Of a stretch of DNA of 64,000 nt, positions 43,278 to 50,599 are shown one piece after another. The stretch is from positions 2,666,001 through 2,730,000 of the forward strand of contig NZ_CP041660.1 in NCBI RefSeq assembly GCF_007289895.1, in the 5' to 3' direction. Under the pieces are notes generated by a model. That model did not search any database, was not told the DNA's origin, and worked only from the letters and a program-made list of their open reading frames with translations. A program made the translations under genes and the position numbers. The first letter of the stretch is position 1. Every line of letters begins with the position of its first letter. This DNA comes from Catenovulum sediminis (GTDB taxonomy: Bacteria; Pseudomonadota; Gammaproteobacteria; Enterobacterales; Alteromonadaceae).

Positions 43278-44552
43278 ATGAAACTCTCACGATTGATTTT
43301 ATCCGCTGTTTTAGTCGGTAGTAGTTTATCGGCCGTAGTTATGCCGTTAGACGTAGCTGCTAAAACTTTGGAAGAAAGAAAAAAGGAAAGACCTGTAGAG
43401 GTCATGTCCGAAAGAGTCGGTAAAAAAGTTGCGGAAGCAATAGACATGATGACAGGCGGTGAAGATGGTGAGAACAAAGCACCTTTACCAGATGTCATCA
43501 AAATGCTTGAAGATATTGACGTCAAAAAAGAGTTTGACAAGGCGTTTTTATCTCAATTGACTGGTAAATTGTATGCGCAAGAAGGCGAATACAAAAAGGC
43601 GATTGAAAAAATCAAGTATGCTGCCGATTTAGATGTATTAAGCTGGGATGACCAGGCTGGTGTGTTAAAACTTTTGGCTGTATTAAGCTTGCAGGAAGAG
43701 AAATACCAAAATGCTATAGATTACTATAACAAATGGTATGGCTTTACTGAGAAGCACGACCCTCAAGTATATACACATAAAGCTTTGAGTTATTATCAGT
43801 TGAAAAATTATGCTAAAACAGTTGAACAAGCTGATTTAGCAATTAAGCACGCAGATGAGCCAAAAGCAGATGCTTATCAGTTGAAAATGTCAGCTTATGT
43901 AGATACTAAAAACTACAAGAAAGCGATTGATGTTTGTATTGCTGCGTTGCAGTACTTCCCAGAAGATAAAAAATGGTGGGTTCCACTTGCTCAATTTTAT
44001 CTAATGGAAGAAGATTATGCGCGCGCTTTATCAACGTTTGAGTTATCTGAAATGCAAGGGTTTTTAAACAAGCCTGCACATTACACAACTTTGGCGCAAT
44101 TATATTCAATGTATGGTATTCCGTATAAAGCGGCTAAGACAATGGAAAAGCATATTGACTCAGGGTTAATCGAGAAAAACGCGAAAAACCTGTCAGTAAC
44201 TGCTAACTACTATCACCAAGCATCTGATTATAAGAAAGCGGCGCAAACTTATTTAGCTGCCGCAAAGTTGAGCGAAGATCCTGAACACTATAGAAAATCA
44301 GGTGATTTGTTGGCCATCGCGGAAGACTATAAAAGTGCTATTGATGCCTACGAGAAAGCCATTGATTTCGGCAGCGAAAAGCTTGCTCAAATTAAGGTTT
44401 CGTTAATAGAAGCTCATTTTTACTTGGGTAACTATAAAAAAGCGTATCAATATGCCAAAGAAAGTTTGCAATCAAAACAGCACAAGCGTATGGCGCAAGG
44501 CTGGATTGGCTATATAAAAGATACAGCACAGCGTAAAAACGTATCTATATAA
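43278..44552 (+). CDS. TPR-repeat periplasmic protein of the TonB operon
   Basis: 424 residues: signal peptide (MKLSRLILSAVLVGSSLSAV...) and a series of tetratricopeptide repeats (for example YKKAIEKIKYAADLD, YQNAIDYYNKWYG, YKSAIDAYEKAID). A TPR gene ends the TonB2 operons of related bacteria and is often needed for full activity. It may organise the periplasmic complex; the role is inferred from location. Confidence 0.88.
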   Translation: MKLSRLILSAVLVGSSLSAVVMPLDVAAKTLEERKKERPVEVMSERVGKKVAEAIDMMTGGEDGENKAPLPDVIKMLEDIDVKKEFDKAFLSQLTGKLYAQEGEYKKAIEKIKYAADLDVLSWDDQAGVLKLLAVLSLQEEKYQNAIDYYNKWYGFTEKHDPQVYTHKALSYYQLKNYAKTVEQADLAIKHADEPKADAYQLKMSAYVDTKNYKKAIDVCIAALQYFPEDKKWWVPLAQFYLMEEDYARALSTFELSEMQGFLNKPAHYTTLAQLYSMYGIPYKAAKTMEKHIDSGLIEKNAKNLSVTANYYHQASDYKKAAQTYLAAAKLSEDPEHYRKSGDLLAIAEDYKSAIDAYEKAIDFGSEKLAQIKVSLIEAHFYLGNYKKAYQYAKESLQSKQHKRMAQGWIGYIKDTAQRKNVSI

Positions 44553-44576
44553 CTTTCTACTTTTATCAGTGATTTG

Positions 44577-44602
44577 AAAAAGGAGCGCAAGCTCCTTTTT
44601 TT
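44577..44602 (+). terminator. Terminator of the TonB operon
   Basis: Stem AAAAAGGAGC / GCTCCTTTTT with loop GCAA, followed by T residues. It separates the TonB operon from the RiPP locus. Confidence 0.92.
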
Positions 44603-44624
44603 ATGCACAAAAAAGTTTTTCTTA

Positions 44625-44653
44625 ATGCGGAATTTTTGAAATATATTCTGCAT
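44625..44653. promoter_or_regulatory. Inverted repeat upstream of the RiPP precursor gene
   Basis: ATGCGGAAT (44625-44633) and ATTCTGCAT (44645-44653) pair at 8 of 9 positions with an 11-base spacer. It lies 50-78 bases before the precursor ATG, where an operator would be expected. Chance cannot be excluded. Confidence 0.35.
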
Positions 44654-44702
44654 CATTCGGGTCATCTAAGGGAATTAAAATATTCTAATAGGACATTTTT
44701 AT

Positions 44703-45107
44703 ATGAGAGCTTTAAAAAAATCATCTGTAGCAGCGACATTAGGTGCGGTCGTTGTTGGATCTTTAACGACTGTTGAACTTGCCCAAGCCAACCCTTTTGC
44801 CATGCAGCATTTAGCCGCTGGATATGAATTGGCTGCCGGCGAAGCTAAATGCGGAGAAGGCAAGTGCGGCGCTAAAGCCGACAAAGAAGCTAAATGCGGT
44901 GAAGGCAAGTGTGGCGCTAAAGCCGATAAAGAAGCTAAATGCGGTGAAGGCAAGTGTGGCGCTAAAGCCGACAAAGAAGCTAAATGCGGAGAAGGCAAGT
45001 GTGGCGCTAAAGCTGATAAAGAAGCTAAATGCGGTGAAGGCAAGTGTGGCGCTAAAGCCGACAAAGAAGCTAAATGCGGTGAAGGCAAGTGCGGTAGCAA
45101 AAAATAA
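44703..45107 (+). CDS. hvfA: HvfA/bufferin-like RiPP precursor with EGKCG repeats
   Basis: 134 residues: an N-terminal signal peptide (RALKKSSVAATLGAVVVGSL, likely cut after LAQA) and a repeat region in which a 15-residue unit (EAKCGEGKCGAKADK) occurs six times, the last shortened. This gives six EAKCG and six EGKCG motifs and twelve Cys, the only Cys in the protein. HvfA of Haemophilus influenzae carries the same EGKCG motifs, which HvfB-HvfC convert into copper-binding groups. The stop shares one base with the DUF692 start. An AGGA lies nine bases before the ATG. Confidence 0.88.
   Translation: MRALKKSSVAATLGAVVVGSLTTVELAQANPFAMQHLAAGYELAAGEAKCGEGKCGAKADKEAKCGEGKCGAKADKEAKCGEGKCGAKADKEAKCGEGKCGAKADKEAKCGEGKCGAKADKEAKCGEGKCGSKK
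44841..45104 (+). repeat. Six 45-bp in-frame repeats in the RiPP precursor
   Basis: The unit starts GAAGCTAAATGCGG and repeats at 44841, 44886, 44931, 44976, 45021 and 45066; the last is cut short. Copies differ at a few wobble positions (GGA or GGT, TGC or TGT, GCC or GCT, GAC or GAT), so the peptide is kept while the DNA drifts. Confidence 0.95.
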
Positions 45108-45949
45108 TGTTTGATGGTTTACATGGTGCGGGTCTAGGACTGCGCAGAGAGTTTATCGAGCACATCGACGAGCGTATGGATTCTGAATTGGACTTCCTAG
45201 AGGTTGCACCTGAAAACTGGATTAAAATGGGTGGCCGGTATGGCCACTTGTTTGAGCAGCTTACAGACAAATTCCAATTTACCTGCCATGGGTTATCTTT
45301 ATCAATTGGGAGTCCTGATCCGCTAGATGTAAACTTCGTTAAACAAGTGAAAACTTTTTTAGATAAACATAATATTGTTTTATATTCTGAGCACTTGAGT
45401 TTCTGCTCTGCGCAAGGACACCTATATGATTTAATGCCAATTCCTTTTACTTACGAGGCGGCGCATTATGTTGCTAACAGGGTAAAGCAAGTACAGGATA
45501 TTATCGAACGTCCTTTGGTGTTAGAAAACGTATCTTATTATACGCCATTAATGCAGGAAATAAGTGAATTGGAATTTACCAAAACTGTATTGGAAGAATC
45601 AGGTGCCTTGATGTTATTAGATGTAAATAACGTTTATGTAAATTCTATTAATCATAACTATGATGCCGAATTATTTATTTCTGGTTTACCTTCAGAAAAA
45701 GTTGTTTATGGGCATATTGCCGGCCATTATAATCAAGACATAGATCTCATAATCGATACTCATGGCGCTGATGTTATTGAACCTGTTTGGAAGTTGTTAG
45801 AATTCGCATATCAACAACATGGTTGTTTCCCGACTTTATTAGAAAGAGACTTTAATATTCCTTCTGTTGAGCAAATGCTTGAAGAAGTCCGATGTATCAG
45901 CAAAATACAGGCCGCAGTCAATAAGCTTAATTTGAGTATCAATGCATAA
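45107..45949 (+). CDS. hvfB: DUF692 multi-iron maturation enzyme (HvfB/MbnB/BufB type)
   Basis: 280-residue TIM-barrel enzyme. Expected metal ligands are present: His in TCHGLSLSIG, Glu and His in YSEHLSF, Glu in LENVSYY, Asp and Asn in LLDVNNVYV, His in GHIAGH and DTHG, and Glu/Asp in LLERDFN. In the methanobactin and HvfABC systems these proteins use non-haem iron and oxygen to turn Cys into oxazolone/thioamide. It begins on the last base of the precursor stop and overlaps the DUF2063 gene by 8 bases. Confidence 0.92.
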   Translation: MFDGLHGAGLGLRREFIEHIDERMDSELDFLEVAPENWIKMGGRYGHLFEQLTDKFQFTCHGLSLSIGSPDPLDVNFVKQVKTFLDKHNIVLYSEHLSFCSAQGHLYDLMPIPFTYEAAHYVANRVKQVQDIIERPLVLENVSYYTPLMQEISELEFTKTVLEESGALMLLDVNNVYVNSINHNYDAELFISGLPSEKVVYGHIAGHYNQDIDLIIDTHGADVIEPVWKLLEFAYQQHGCFPTLLERDFNIPSVEQMLEEVRCISKIQAAVNKLNLSINA

Positions 45950-46679
45950 ATTTCAACAAGTGCAATTGGATTTTGCAAAAACGATTCGAAATCCGCTTAA
46001 TTCAGGCAAGTGCAGCACATTCCCAGAACAGCGTGTCGCGGTATATCAAGAACTTTTTATCAATAATATGCAAGATAGCCTTACTACGGTATTTCCGGTA
46101 TTGGCCAAAATATATGGTGAGGTAAATTGGCCGAAAGTTGTCAGACAATTTTTTCAGATACATAAAAGCCGGTCACCTTATTTTAGTGATTTAGCATCTG
46201 AATTTATTGATTTTTTAAGTGAAGAATATGATAGCAAAGACGCTCCGCCATTTTATCTTTATCTGGCCCACTATGAATGGCTTGAATTAAGTATTGCGAT
46301 AAAACAGGCATCATACAAACGAAGCAAAATAAAAAATCTTGAAACGCAATTTTTTGTTTTATCAGATGTTGCTCAGATGGTCTCTTACCCTTTTCCAGTG
46401 CATAAAATAACTGTCGATTACCAGCCACAAGCAGAGCAAGATACAACATATCTGGTAGTCTATCGCGATTTTAATGAAAGGGTTCAATTTTTAGAGATTA
46501 ACGCTGTATTAGCTTTTACATTAGATTTAGTCGATAAATCTGTGGCAAATACTTTTTCTGCTCTGTTGGGTGAAGTTACTAAACACTTGCCTCAAATATC
46601 TGCAACACAATTGGAAAATGGACTAAAAACGAGACTGAGTGAGTTGGCAGAGGTTGGCATTATAGTAAATAAGAAATAA
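45942..46679 (+). CDS. hvfC: DUF2063 partner protein (HvfC/BufC type)
   Basis: 245 residues. The N-terminal half (LDFAKTIRNPLN... and VYQELFINNMQDSLTTVFPVLAKIYG) matches the DUF2063 putative DNA-binding/partner domain that accompanies DUF692 proteins. In HvfBC and BufBC the pair form the working enzyme, DUF2063 presenting the precursor. It overlaps the hvfB end by 8 bases. Its C-terminal half (PFPVHKITVDYQ) is less conserved. Confidence 0.88.
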   Translation: MHKFQQVQLDFAKTIRNPLNSGKCSTFPEQRVAVYQELFINNMQDSLTTVFPVLAKIYGEVNWPKVVRQFFQIHKSRSPYFSDLASEFIDFLSEEYDSKDAPPFYLYLAHYEWLELSIAIKQASYKRSKIKNLETQFFVLSDVAQMVSYPFPVHKITVDYQPQAEQDTTYLVVYRDFNERVQFLEINAVLAFTLDLVDKSVANTFSALLGEVTKHLPQISATQLENGLKTRLSELAEVGIIVNKK

Positions 46680-46738
46680 TTATTTGGAATTGACGTAACT
46701 TTTGTCTAACATACGCAAAAATTTTTAGGAGGAGATAT

Positions 46739-46867
46739 ATGTCTCATCATGATCATCAGTTTGAAGAAACTTCAAACGTGGGCCATTTATTAGCGGCAGT
46801 GGCCGTGACTATTGCCTTACCTTTGCTACCAGCTGTATTAGGTTGGTATATCATTTTAGCAAAGTAA
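46739..46867 (+). CDS. Small His-rich membrane protein
   Basis: 42 residues from ATG 46739, with a very strong ribosome-binding site AGGAGGAG three to ten bases before. The N-terminus MSHHDHQFEE is rich in His and acid residues and is followed by one hydrophobic helix (about residues 16-40, LLAAVAVTIALPLLPAVLGW). It starts 59 bases after the hvfC-like stop with no terminator between, so it may belong to the RiPP operon. I do not recognise the family. The His-rich head could bind metal (inference). Confidence 0.65.
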   Translation: MSHHDHQFEETSNVGHLLAAVAVTIALPLLPAVLGWYIILAK

Positions 46868-46894
46868 AACAAAAACATTTTTACAGTTAAGGAC

Positions 46895-46955
46895 TTGGCA
46901 AATATGCCAATTTGAAACTTTTTGGCAGTTTTTGTGACTAACAAATACTGCCAAA
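46895..46955. repeat. Two TTGGCA hairpins before the receiver gene
   Basis: TTGGCA-AATA-TGCCAA at 46895-46910 is a perfect hairpin, and TTTGGCAGT (46921-46929) pairs with ACTGCCAAA (46947-46955). The same TTGGCA core appears four times in 61 bases, twice in each direction. They may be a terminator-like structure for the small gene or operator sites for the receiver gene. Confidence 0.5.
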
Positions 46956-46982
46956 GTTATTCAGGGTAGAAGGTTAAACATT

Positions 46983-47351
46983 ATGAAAGTATTACTAGTT
47001 GATGATAACGTTGCGTTACGCCATCAAATTGCCGAGCAGTTGTTTGCCAATGGTTTTGAGGTAGAGCAAGCTGACAATGGTTTATCAGGCCTTAATAAAG
47101 CAAAAAATAGTTCATTTGATATCGTCGTTACTGACTTTAAAATGCCGATTATTGATGGTGTTAAGTTATCAGAGAATTTAATAAACGACTTAAATTATCA
47201 AGCTCAACAAATATTAATATTAACGACAGACACCAGTGCACAAGCCATTTTCAATATCGAAAAATTAAAGTTGGAATGGTTAGCTAAACCGGTAGAATTT
47301 GAACAAATCTTAGCTGCAATTCAGCACGCAGATGAAGGAGCAGCAGCTTAA
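46983..47351 (+). CDS. Single-domain response regulator (CheY-like)
   Basis: 122-residue receiver without output domain. Acidic pair in LLVDDNVALR, phosphoacceptor Asp in IVVTDFKMPIIDG, Thr in LILTTDT and Lys in WLAKPVEF are all present, so it is competent. No sensor kinase is adjacent; the partner is unknown. AAGG about 11 bases before the ATG is the likely ribosome-binding site. Confidence 0.92.
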   Translation: MKVLLVDDNVALRHQIAEQLFANGFEVEQADNGLSGLNKAKNSSFDIVVTDFKMPIIDGVKLSENLINDLNYQAQQILILTTDTSAQAIFNIEKLKLEWLAKPVEFEQILAAIQHADEGAAA

Positions 47352-47358
47352 TCTTTAA

Positions 47359-47390
47359 ACATACTTTAAGCCTGTTGGCTTAAAGTATGT
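47359..47390 (+). other. Perfect stem-loop after the receiver gene
   Basis: ACATACTTTAAGCC pairs perfectly with GGCTTAAAGTATGT (14 bp) around a TGTT loop. No T run follows, so it is not a standard terminator. It may stabilise the 3' end or act with Rho. Confidence 0.65.
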
Positions 47391-47468
47391 AAGCTTGAAG
47401 CAGGATAGCTTGCAATTTGGTTCCATTTTGTTTTAATGCTGCCAAGCAAAACGTATTGGAACCTAAAA

Positions 47469-48017
47469 ATGACAGAGCAAGCTAATTTGGACTATATCAG
47501 ATCCAGCATTAAAACCATTCCTAATTATCCCAAAGAAGGGATCATGTTCAGAGATGTCACTTCTTTGATCGAAGATGGCAAAGCTTTCGCCATGTCAGTA
47601 AATGCGTTGGCAGCACAATACAAAGACAAACATATCACTAAAGTTGTCGGTGCAGAAGCGAGGGGATTTATTTTTGGCGCAGCCGTTGCAAATGTATTAG
47701 GGGCTGGTTTTGTGTTAGCCCGTAAGCCGAATAAACTTCCACGTGAGACCGTAAGACAAAGCTATCAGTTGGAATATGGTGAAGACGAACTGCATATCCA
47801 CAAAGACGCTTTAACCGCTGACGATCATGTTTTAATGATTGACGATTTAATTGCAACAGGCGGTACAATGGAAGCCGCCGTAAAGATGGTACGTTCATTA
47901 GGAGCAAAAGTTGAAGATGCAGCTTTTGTTATCTCGCTACCTGATTTAGGTGGTTTAGCTAAACTGCAAGCATTAGATGTACAAGCATATAGTTTAGTGA
48001 GTTTTAACGGAGAGTAA
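47469..48017 (+). CDS. apt: Adenine phosphoribosyltransferase
   Basis: Purine salvage enzyme, adenine plus PRPP to AMP. From ATG 47469 the product has 182 residues, with [15 protein letters not shown] near the start, [13 protein letters not shown] and the PRPP-binding [14 protein letters not shown]. dnaX starts 8 bases after the stop, as in E. coli (apt-dnaX-ybaB-recR). Confidence 0.97.
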
Positions 48018-48025
48018 TATCTAAA

Positions 48026-50599
<2,574 letters not shown>

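Follow-up and report, generated by a model that had tools for sequence, protein, structure and literature searches.

We analysed a stretch of 64,000 nucleotides of Catenovulum sediminis (contig NZ_CP041660.1, positions 2,666,001 to 2,730,000 of the forward strand; the whole stretch is called the window), and studied three consecutive genes in it that resemble hvfABC. The open reading frame (ORF) list of the window gives them, all on the plus strand, as 44703-45107 (A), 45107-45949 (B) and 45942-46679 (C). The stop of A and the start of B have one base in common, and B and C overlap by 8 bases, so the ORF coordinates confirm the three-gene locus with start/stop overlaps at 44703-46679 that an earlier note on this DNA had described. 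The note had also proposed an HvfABC-like locus for a ribosomally synthesized and post-translationally modified peptide (RiPP) with DUF692 and DUF2063 genes, which agrees with the curated family models, since these are over cut-off for B, C and the repeat of A. The main features, with coordinates in the window, are:

44637..44663, plus strand: promoter-like motif in two parts, TGAAAT-N17-GGTC, which begins 66 nt upstream of the precursor gene
44703..45107, plus strand: precursor gene of the HvfA/captophorin type, 134 amino acids (aa), 12 Cys, Sec-type signal peptide (assigned by eye instead of with a predictor)
44811..44825, plus strand: leader motif L-A-A-G-Y ([LM]xxGY), a candidate for recognition by the enzyme pair
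44841..45104, plus strand: core of five 45-nt units EAKCGEGKCGAKADK (44841-45065) and a last unit EAKCGEGKCGSKK (45066-45104), with 12 K-C-G sites
45107..45949, plus strand: MNIO (DUF692) gene of the HvfB family; PF05114 330 bits, NF003818 419 bits (cut-off 360)
45942..46679, plus strand: DUF2063 partner gene of the HvfC family (PME1); PF09836 and PF22106, NF050145 237 bits (cut-off 142)

The array of the precursor is a single tandem repeat with a period of 45 and 95% matches, following a leader that contains NPFAMQHLAAGYELAAG. Six repeat units and twelve Cys had been counted before; the twelve Cys stand, while the units are five with identical protein sequence and a shorter sixth. Protein A matches NF050137 (KCGExKCG_twice) with 111 bits, over its cut-off of 19.5, and has no Pfam match. 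Its AlphaFold2 model (predicted local distance difference test, pLDDT, 46) is unreliable and was not usable. Searches of the C. sediminis genome with PF05114 and with NF050137 found no locus other than A-B-C.

For protein B, the putative iron-ligand residues are H61, H96, E140, D172, N174/N175, H203, H207, D217, H219 and E246, the putative catalytic base is D248, and R13, R14 and F249 are putative substrate residues. All of them, N174 and N175 both included, are invariant in the 26 of 26 aligned MNIOs (window included), so the loss of iron ligands that the earlier note had held to speak against its reading does not occur in these sequences. Part of the His, Glu and Asp ligands were assigned from the general MNIO fold. 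The DVNN and DTHG stretches of B (N174/N175, D217, H219) match, in our reading, N175, D242 and H244 of HvfB, while Arg15, Arg16, Asp249 and Phe250 of FonB were likewise mapped onto B by motif. Each of the three HvfB residues is needed for activity (PMC13419390), and the roles of the FonB and HvfB residues have been tested or modelled (PMC13097082, PMC13419390). The AlphaFold2 model of B (pLDDT 88.2) has its best PDB match in 3bww (E 1.6e-22, root-mean-square deviation 1.8 over 273 columns), followed by TglH and MbnB, and 3bww is 72.4% identical to HvfB (PMC13419390). Protein C matches PDB 3dee, the gonococcal PME1 (E 0.00022), and its RiPP recognition element was assigned by family membership. 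Among 34 relatives of B in public genomes, 27 have 57-69% identity and seven have 38-44% (best segment), the latter being Pasteurellaceae-type proteins and those of Alysiella, an Acinetobacter metagenome-assembled genome (MAG) and a Cardiobacteriaceae MAG. The score of B is below cut-off for MNIO_BufB (253 bits; cut-off 310) and for MbnB TIGR04159 (37.9 bits; cut-off 325), which places it outside the bufferin BufB and the methanobactin families.

To compare relatives, we searched 118 genomes of the same family (genomes and loci carry our G and L numbers). It turned out that 84 match B, 57 of which reach at least 300 bits (close B), and 89 match the repeat model; 55 of the 57 genomes with close B match the precursor model. 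With four more of the genus, the 57 make 61 enzyme-bearing genomes, six of which lie outside the 55 enzyme-paired precursors counted below, either with the leader masked or cut off (G043, G044, G089) or with no precursor in the stretch (G054, G077, G121). Counted are G051, whose precursor is cut at a contig end (L149), and G036, whose precursor lies away from the MNIO (L146). The small-ORF listing used a ribosome-binding-site filter and misses some loci.

The twelve sites had been regarded as more than a simple set, but Cys numbers across the 55 family precursors (window included) range from 5 to 26 with a median of 12, and a Cys-repeat precursor with 58 Cys has already been published. In the comparison of precursors that the earlier note had suggested, EAKCG is present in all seven genomes of the genus whose precursor is readable, and six of the seven (not G113) have EAKCG-EGKCG pairs across most of the array. 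EAKCG occurs in 18 of the 55 family precursors, in several of them only once among EGKCG sites. Such pairs are also found in G035 and G036 from other genera. The spacers of the genus vary, namely AKADK in the window, AKAEK in G120, GKADK in G118 and AAKKDH (last copy AAKKDR) in G050, and the precursor of G119 is identical to that of C. agarivorans DS-2 (L007). In an Arenicellales MAG and a gammaproteobacterial MAG (L023 and L027), EGNCG or EGTCG replaces part of the EGKCG sites, and MNIO and HvfC matches adjoin.

At DNA level, the five full units of the window differ in four columns, every one of which is a third codon position and synonymous; a transition in the unit has a 1 in 3 chance of being synonymous, which gives p ~0.01 for four columns. 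The wobble-only differences had been taken as a sign of peptide selection, and they fit it. Nevertheless, recent duplication or homogenisation of the array explains the identity equally well, because spacers are far more alike within arrays than between genomes (43% and 1.4% identical spacer pairs, respectively, in the 55 precursors), so the pattern is suggestive only.

The sequence features of a captophorin cluster were found at this locus, namely an HvfB-group MNIO with conserved putative ligand and substrate residues, a PME1 partner and a signal-peptide precursor with Lys-Cys 5-mer repeats. By these family and motif matches, the locus is a member of the HvfABC/captophorin class, and the cluster itself is ordinary and of a known kind. 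We consider it very likely, by analogy, that the locus makes a captophorin, a RiPP of the oxazolin/fontiphorin type with 5-thiooxazole sites that chelates copper; our confidence is high for class and chemistry and moderate for the copper function. As in the characterised homologues, the MNIO-HvfC complex would hold the precursor in the cytoplasm through its leader, to which the conserved signal peptide region and LxxGY point. From each K-C-G Cys and the carbonyl of the preceding Lys, a mixed-valent diiron MNIO would form a 5-thiooxazole, removing 4 H, and all twelve sites would be accepted (about -48 Da in total). The repeated -4 Da changes named in the earlier note agree with this chemistry. 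The product would then be exported by Sec, lose its signal peptide and chelate copper in the periplasm. Expression would start from an alternative-sigma promoter of the extracytoplasmic-function (ECF) kind on metal or envelope/redox stress, as the upstream motif suggests. In the homologues, HvfB reaches its mixed-valent diiron cluster only with HvfC (PMC13419390), and MmrA of Microbulbifer loses 4 H at each of its six Cys (PMC12538549).

The repeat protein is also present where the enzymes are not. No match to B was found in 20 of the 89 genomes with the repeat, and in these 20 genomes, 17 of which have a completeness of 90% or more and a contamination of 5% or less, neither PF05114 (0/20) nor PF09836 (0/20) was matched; in 14 control genomes, PF05114 was matched in 2 and PF09836 in 1. 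There are 14 further genomes with distant MNIOs only (best match to B 106 to 198 bits), of which G112 was dropped for masked letters, leaving 13. The enzyme-free and distant-MNIO precursors have a common leader type with the consensus MNLxKKS...PAKAExNPF..., and the enzyme-free leader aligns to the window-type leader with an hhalign probability of 99.4 over 59 columns, an alignment that includes the shared core. With a leader-only profile, 35 genomes reach at least 49 bits (the 20, the 14 and G048) and any close-B genome at most 38.3 bits; the profile was built from 13 of the 35, and 22 are independent of it. Of 12 enzyme-free-type loci viewed, 10 have the precursor just before the apt-dnaX side (L110-L113, L118, L119, L121, L124, L126, L141), and 7 of these 10 have TPR on the other side, which is the position of A-B-C in the window. 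The precursor lies elsewhere in L123 and L129, and must do so in G034, G039 and G041, whose apt loci (L114, L116, L117) contain none.

Some features of the precursor change between these groups and others are kept. The motif [LM]xxGY precedes the core in 55/55 enzyme-paired precursors, in 0/20 enzyme-free and in 0/13 distant-MNIO precursors (0/33 combined). Three positions before the first Cys of a cluster, all 343 enzyme-paired cases have Glu (337) or Asp (6), while Lys is the most common in enzyme-free (Lys 100, Glu 14 and Asp 5 of 137) and distant-MNIO precursors (Lys 53, Glu 3 and Asp 4 of 85). The Lys immediately before that Cys is found in 332/343, 137/137 and 85/85 cases respectively, and the Glu of the inner site is kept in all three groups (327, 100 and 60). 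Upstream, GAAAT-N16/17-GGTC occurs in 41/55 enzyme-paired, 19/20 enzyme-free and 13/13 distant-MNIO precursors, against means of 0.17, 0.03 and 0.02 in shuffles (gaps 15-18); the motif was found and counted on the same precursor set. In the FonA study, processing failed when both repeats of the substrate had Arg at position 1, in agreement with a role of the Glu (PMC13097082). Besides, three genomes without a match to B (G021, G066 and G099; L237, L235 and L236) have drifted to repeats of the KSCGEG kind (KSCGEGMKHKDK) with one Cys per 12 residues; the leader of their precursors is still related (32 to 42 bits), and the upstream motif is present.

In a dnaX+apt tree of 87 rows, the enzyme-free type forms one clade of 25 rows (21 of enzyme-free type and 4 labelled precursor-less; SH-aLRT 100), all rows from a genome or contig with close B fall outside it, and L007 is the row nearest to the window. 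The tree was built by a quick method, rooted on four Shewanella rows and one Paraferrimonas row (A-B-C bearing), and 18 of its 83 inner branches are open. It left out L025, and rows of close-B genomes were labelled enzyme-bearing even with A-B-C elsewhere (L127, L147, L148); L141 was labelled enzyme-free by its leader in spite of 3 Cys and no NF050137 match, and the genomes of L134 and L137, labelled precursor-less, later gave diverged precursors of the enzyme-free type. Since the enzyme-free type forms a single clade, the counts given above amount to essentially one event rather than independent trials. A single loss of B-C with the repeat protein kept seems the simplest account, although replacement or transfer may have occurred instead.

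We therefore put forward, at roughly even odds, that this clade lost HvfB and HvfC, often at this very locus (TPR ... apt-dnaX), and kept the EGKCG protein with its KCG sites, five-residue Cys spacing and promoter motif. On this proposal, EGKCG proteins could be enzyme-independent Cys-repeat metal buffers, the changed features (LxxGY and the Glu) would be the footprint of enzyme recognition, and the kept KCGEGKCG spacing would serve the metal. If true, NF050137 labels such proteins as modified HvfA-family metallophores although their genomes lack the two enzymes, and the EGKCG motif by itself is no evidence of modification. Enzyme-bearing and enzyme-free versions, many of them at one chromosomal position and most of them preceded by the shared motif, would also allow enzyme-serving features to be separated from metal-binding ones and the need for the thiooxazole to be assessed. 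EGKCG repeat proteins without MNIO have been listed as rare cases in 67 of 2583 genomes (PMC12452194 Table 3); in literature listings and the papers cited here, we found no prior description of an enzyme-free clade with a leader type of its own at an orthologous position. Two side candidates were rejected. The divergent gene of about 318 aa beside many enzyme-free precursors is, by eye, a DusC-type tRNA-dihydrouridine synthase, i.e. a neighbour and not a partner, and an enrichment of Met/His in the enzyme-free cores, which could have pointed to direct ligation of copper, was not significant (p 0.10 and 0.21).

Two further features border the three genes:

44576..44603 (stem 44576-44601), plus strand: terminator-like hairpin that leads into a T run; it separates the TonB-TPR unit from the precursor gene
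46739-46867, plus strand: unannotated 42-aa protein with a single transmembrane segment, found 3' of C in many loci

The fold of 44553-44610 has -19.1 kcal/mol (z -4.25; none of 200 shuffles equally stable), and the hairpin limits were taken from its dot-bracket string. A terminator consensus scan has no entry for this hairpin, whose stem extends into the T run. Since the hairpin separates A from TonB-TPR, A-B-C is probably a transcription unit of its own. The upstream TonB and TPR genes have Pfam support, and the names apt, dnaX, ExbB, ExbD, ArgS, DusC and response regulator were assigned by eye. An Rfam search of 44000-47500 gave zero matches, and a simple sigma-70 scan was uninformative, with 14 sites against a shuffle mean of 12.5.

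Several other explanations of the locus were weighed. The earlier note had expected oxazolone/thioamide pairs at the sites, as in methanobactin. This follows the original HvfA report as cited in PMC12452194 and PMC13097082, and the NCBIfam family name still says so, but it is outdated: alkylation-assisted heteronuclear multiple-bond correlation on fontiphorin, oxazolin and gonophorin gave 5-thiooxazole, and the class was named captophorins (PMC13097082), and the HvfB authors accept the revision of the HvfBC products (PMC13419390). B itself sits in the HvfB group by its NF003818 score and far from MbnB, and we regard such pairs as extremely unlikely here. Modification of the six EGKCG sites alone, with EAKCG left as thiols and hence two kinds of ligand per unit, would suit the regular alternation of the two in the genus. 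However, the fontiphorin fragment FonA67-80, SGEAKCGEGKCGEK, has an EAKCGEGKCG pair with both Cys modified, and FonBC tolerates most residues tried at position 2 (PMC13097082). These results, together with the scattered single EAKCG copies in the family, make this reading improbable and take away the novelty that had been claimed for EAKCG as a second kind of site; two site types and twelve sites are already covered in kind by the literature.

The TonB operon upstream had been read as a hint of metal uptake or buffering, and an uptake metallophore that partners with this TonB system would agree with the TonB-TPR unit directly upstream, which recurs in 3/4 other genus loci with long flanks (L007, L077 and L078; not L076) and in 3/3 Pseudidiomarina loci. 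Against it, the terminator-like hairpin lies between the two units, and among the enzyme-bearing loci TPR is upstream in 22/49 and TonB in 17/49 (those with 2.5 kb upstream, which may fall short of TonB), in contrast to apt downstream in 50/56; some identical or near-identical genomes are represented twice among these loci. The TonB neighbourhood is thus weak evidence and better read as inherited gene order than as a sign of uptake, and an uptake role appears very unlikely. The enzyme-free clade, in turn, could suggest that in C. sediminis, too, the Cys-rich precursor buffers metal without being modified, with dispensable enzymes. We hold this to be highly improbable: B and C are intact ORFs overlapping A, B keeps its ligand-type residues, and the precursor retains the leader and Glu features that accompany the enzymes.

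A number of observations weigh against the captophorin reading, the reading of the upstream motif as a promoter, or a strict reading of the recognition features. Protein A scores 60.6 bits with the HvfA equivalog NF050188, under the cut-off of 95, so it is, by this score, HvfA-like and not an HvfA equivalog. No DoxX was found among the six neighbouring and locus proteins scanned (a genome-wide search for it was not made), and modification at twelve sites is argued by analogy. The marine relative was slightly copper-protective in Escherichia coli, and its authors hesitate over a copper-protective role (PMC12538549), so there is less certainty about the physiological role than about the chemistry. 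The promoter-like motif is present in only 4/7 genomes of the genus (G000, G085, G113, G120), and its strict pattern is missing in 14/55 enzyme-paired precursors. The C. sediminis genome shows no enrichment of it, with 7 sites against 8 in the reversed control, and a sigma factor for it was not found. As for the recognition features, FonA with single Ala changes at the Glu was still accepted, and none of the leader residues proved essential on its own, so that a strict reading is weakened (PMC13097082). LxxGY is absent in MNIO-paired loci of Pasteurellaceae, Neisseriaceae, Acinetobacter and Cardiobacteriaceae type (L033-L038, L040), and one Paraglaciecola precursor (L019) has GF in place of GY. 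Because it is missing from MNIO-paired precursors outside the group, LxxGY is a candidate, lineage-bound recognition element for the enzymes.

From its form, we infer that the upstream motif is an ECF-type promoter. It was found in 3/4 Shewanella loci (L022, L024, L028; not L026) and in 0/3 of Pseudidiomarina. In Neisseria, the sigma-E operon presumably includes a gonophorin-type MNIO gene. The second half of the motif is similar to CGTCTAAH, the -10 element of the sigma-E promoter in Neisseria, from which an operon containing a DoxX-like gene is transcribed (PMC2893595). Elsewhere in the C. sediminis genome (L227:5226-8183, about 1.84 Mb), a FecR-like gene followed by a CHASE2-like gene (by eye) has TGAAAT-N17-GGTCT 104 nt upstream; this site recurs in 2/4 clear homologues (G118 and G119; not G085 and G133), and a response-regulator/kinase-like pair lies upstream.

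The 42-aa protein has relatives of about 40 aa with the consensus DPFNxxYLxxA...PLLHxILGW, often just before apt-dnaX, and no Pfam or NCBIfam match above cut-off. It was rejected as a fourth gene of the system, since it precedes apt (with or without a response-regulator gene) in genomes without A-B-C too and its profile matches 102 of the 118 family genomes compared with 57 with close B. In G113, a relative in the genus (L127, L077), it stays with the response-regulator gene and apt-dnaX about a megabase from A-B-C, which lies beside TonB-TPR; a rearrangement has occurred downstream of C there, and the small protein is a neighbourhood gene of apt-dnaX. In G036 (L058), an IS3-like transposase gene (by eye) is upstream of the MNIO with no precursor there, the EGKCG precursor being elsewhere. 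The dnaX-like ORF of the window (48026-50599, by eye) has a long Glu-Pro run (EPEPEP...) in the middle of the protein, at about 49200-49450.

In comparison with known systems, the locus is set apart from methanobactin, for which an MbnB equivalog is expected and B is far below the TIGR04159 cut-off, and from bufferins 1 and 2, for which a DUF2282 or 6/12-Cys Buf2 precursor and a BufB equivalog are expected and neither is seen. The EGKCG proteins without MNIO share with the window the repeat, a related leader and often the chromosomal site, but have no MNIO, DUF2063 or LxxGY and mostly Lys for Glu before the first Cys of a cluster. Published repeat precursors with up to 58 Cys likewise have a Sec signal and two KCG sites per repeat, with a pitch of 17 and a proposed beta-helix, in contrast to a pitch of 15 and the low-confidence model here. 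Oxazolin (HvfABC, Haemophilus influenzae) has the same enzyme families, and HvfB N175, D242 and H244 have motif counterparts in B; HvfA contains six sites in three AEGKCGEGKCG motifs instead of twelve sites, the Pasteurellaceae-type leaders (L035-L037, L040) lack the LxxGY of the window, and HvfX (DoxX) has no counterpart among the window proteins scanned. Fontiphorin (FonABC, Fontimonas thermophila) has the same minimal A-B-C cluster, EAKCGEGKCG pair and MNIO with PME1 (PMC13097082), with 7 sites; the C. sediminis locus has 12, in six regular units of 15 residues of which the last is shorter, and its product is predicted from its genes. Bulbicupramide (MmrABC, Microbulbifer) comes from a marine gammaproteobacterial EGKCG precursor as well, with all six Cys modified in the studied member and 5 to 8 Cys in EGKCG units across the genus, as against 12 in alternating EAKCG/EGKCG (PMC12538549). 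Beside these systems, the C. sediminis locus is a further member, with 12 sites, of a large class that is already known, and it offers a clean substrate with two alternating site types.

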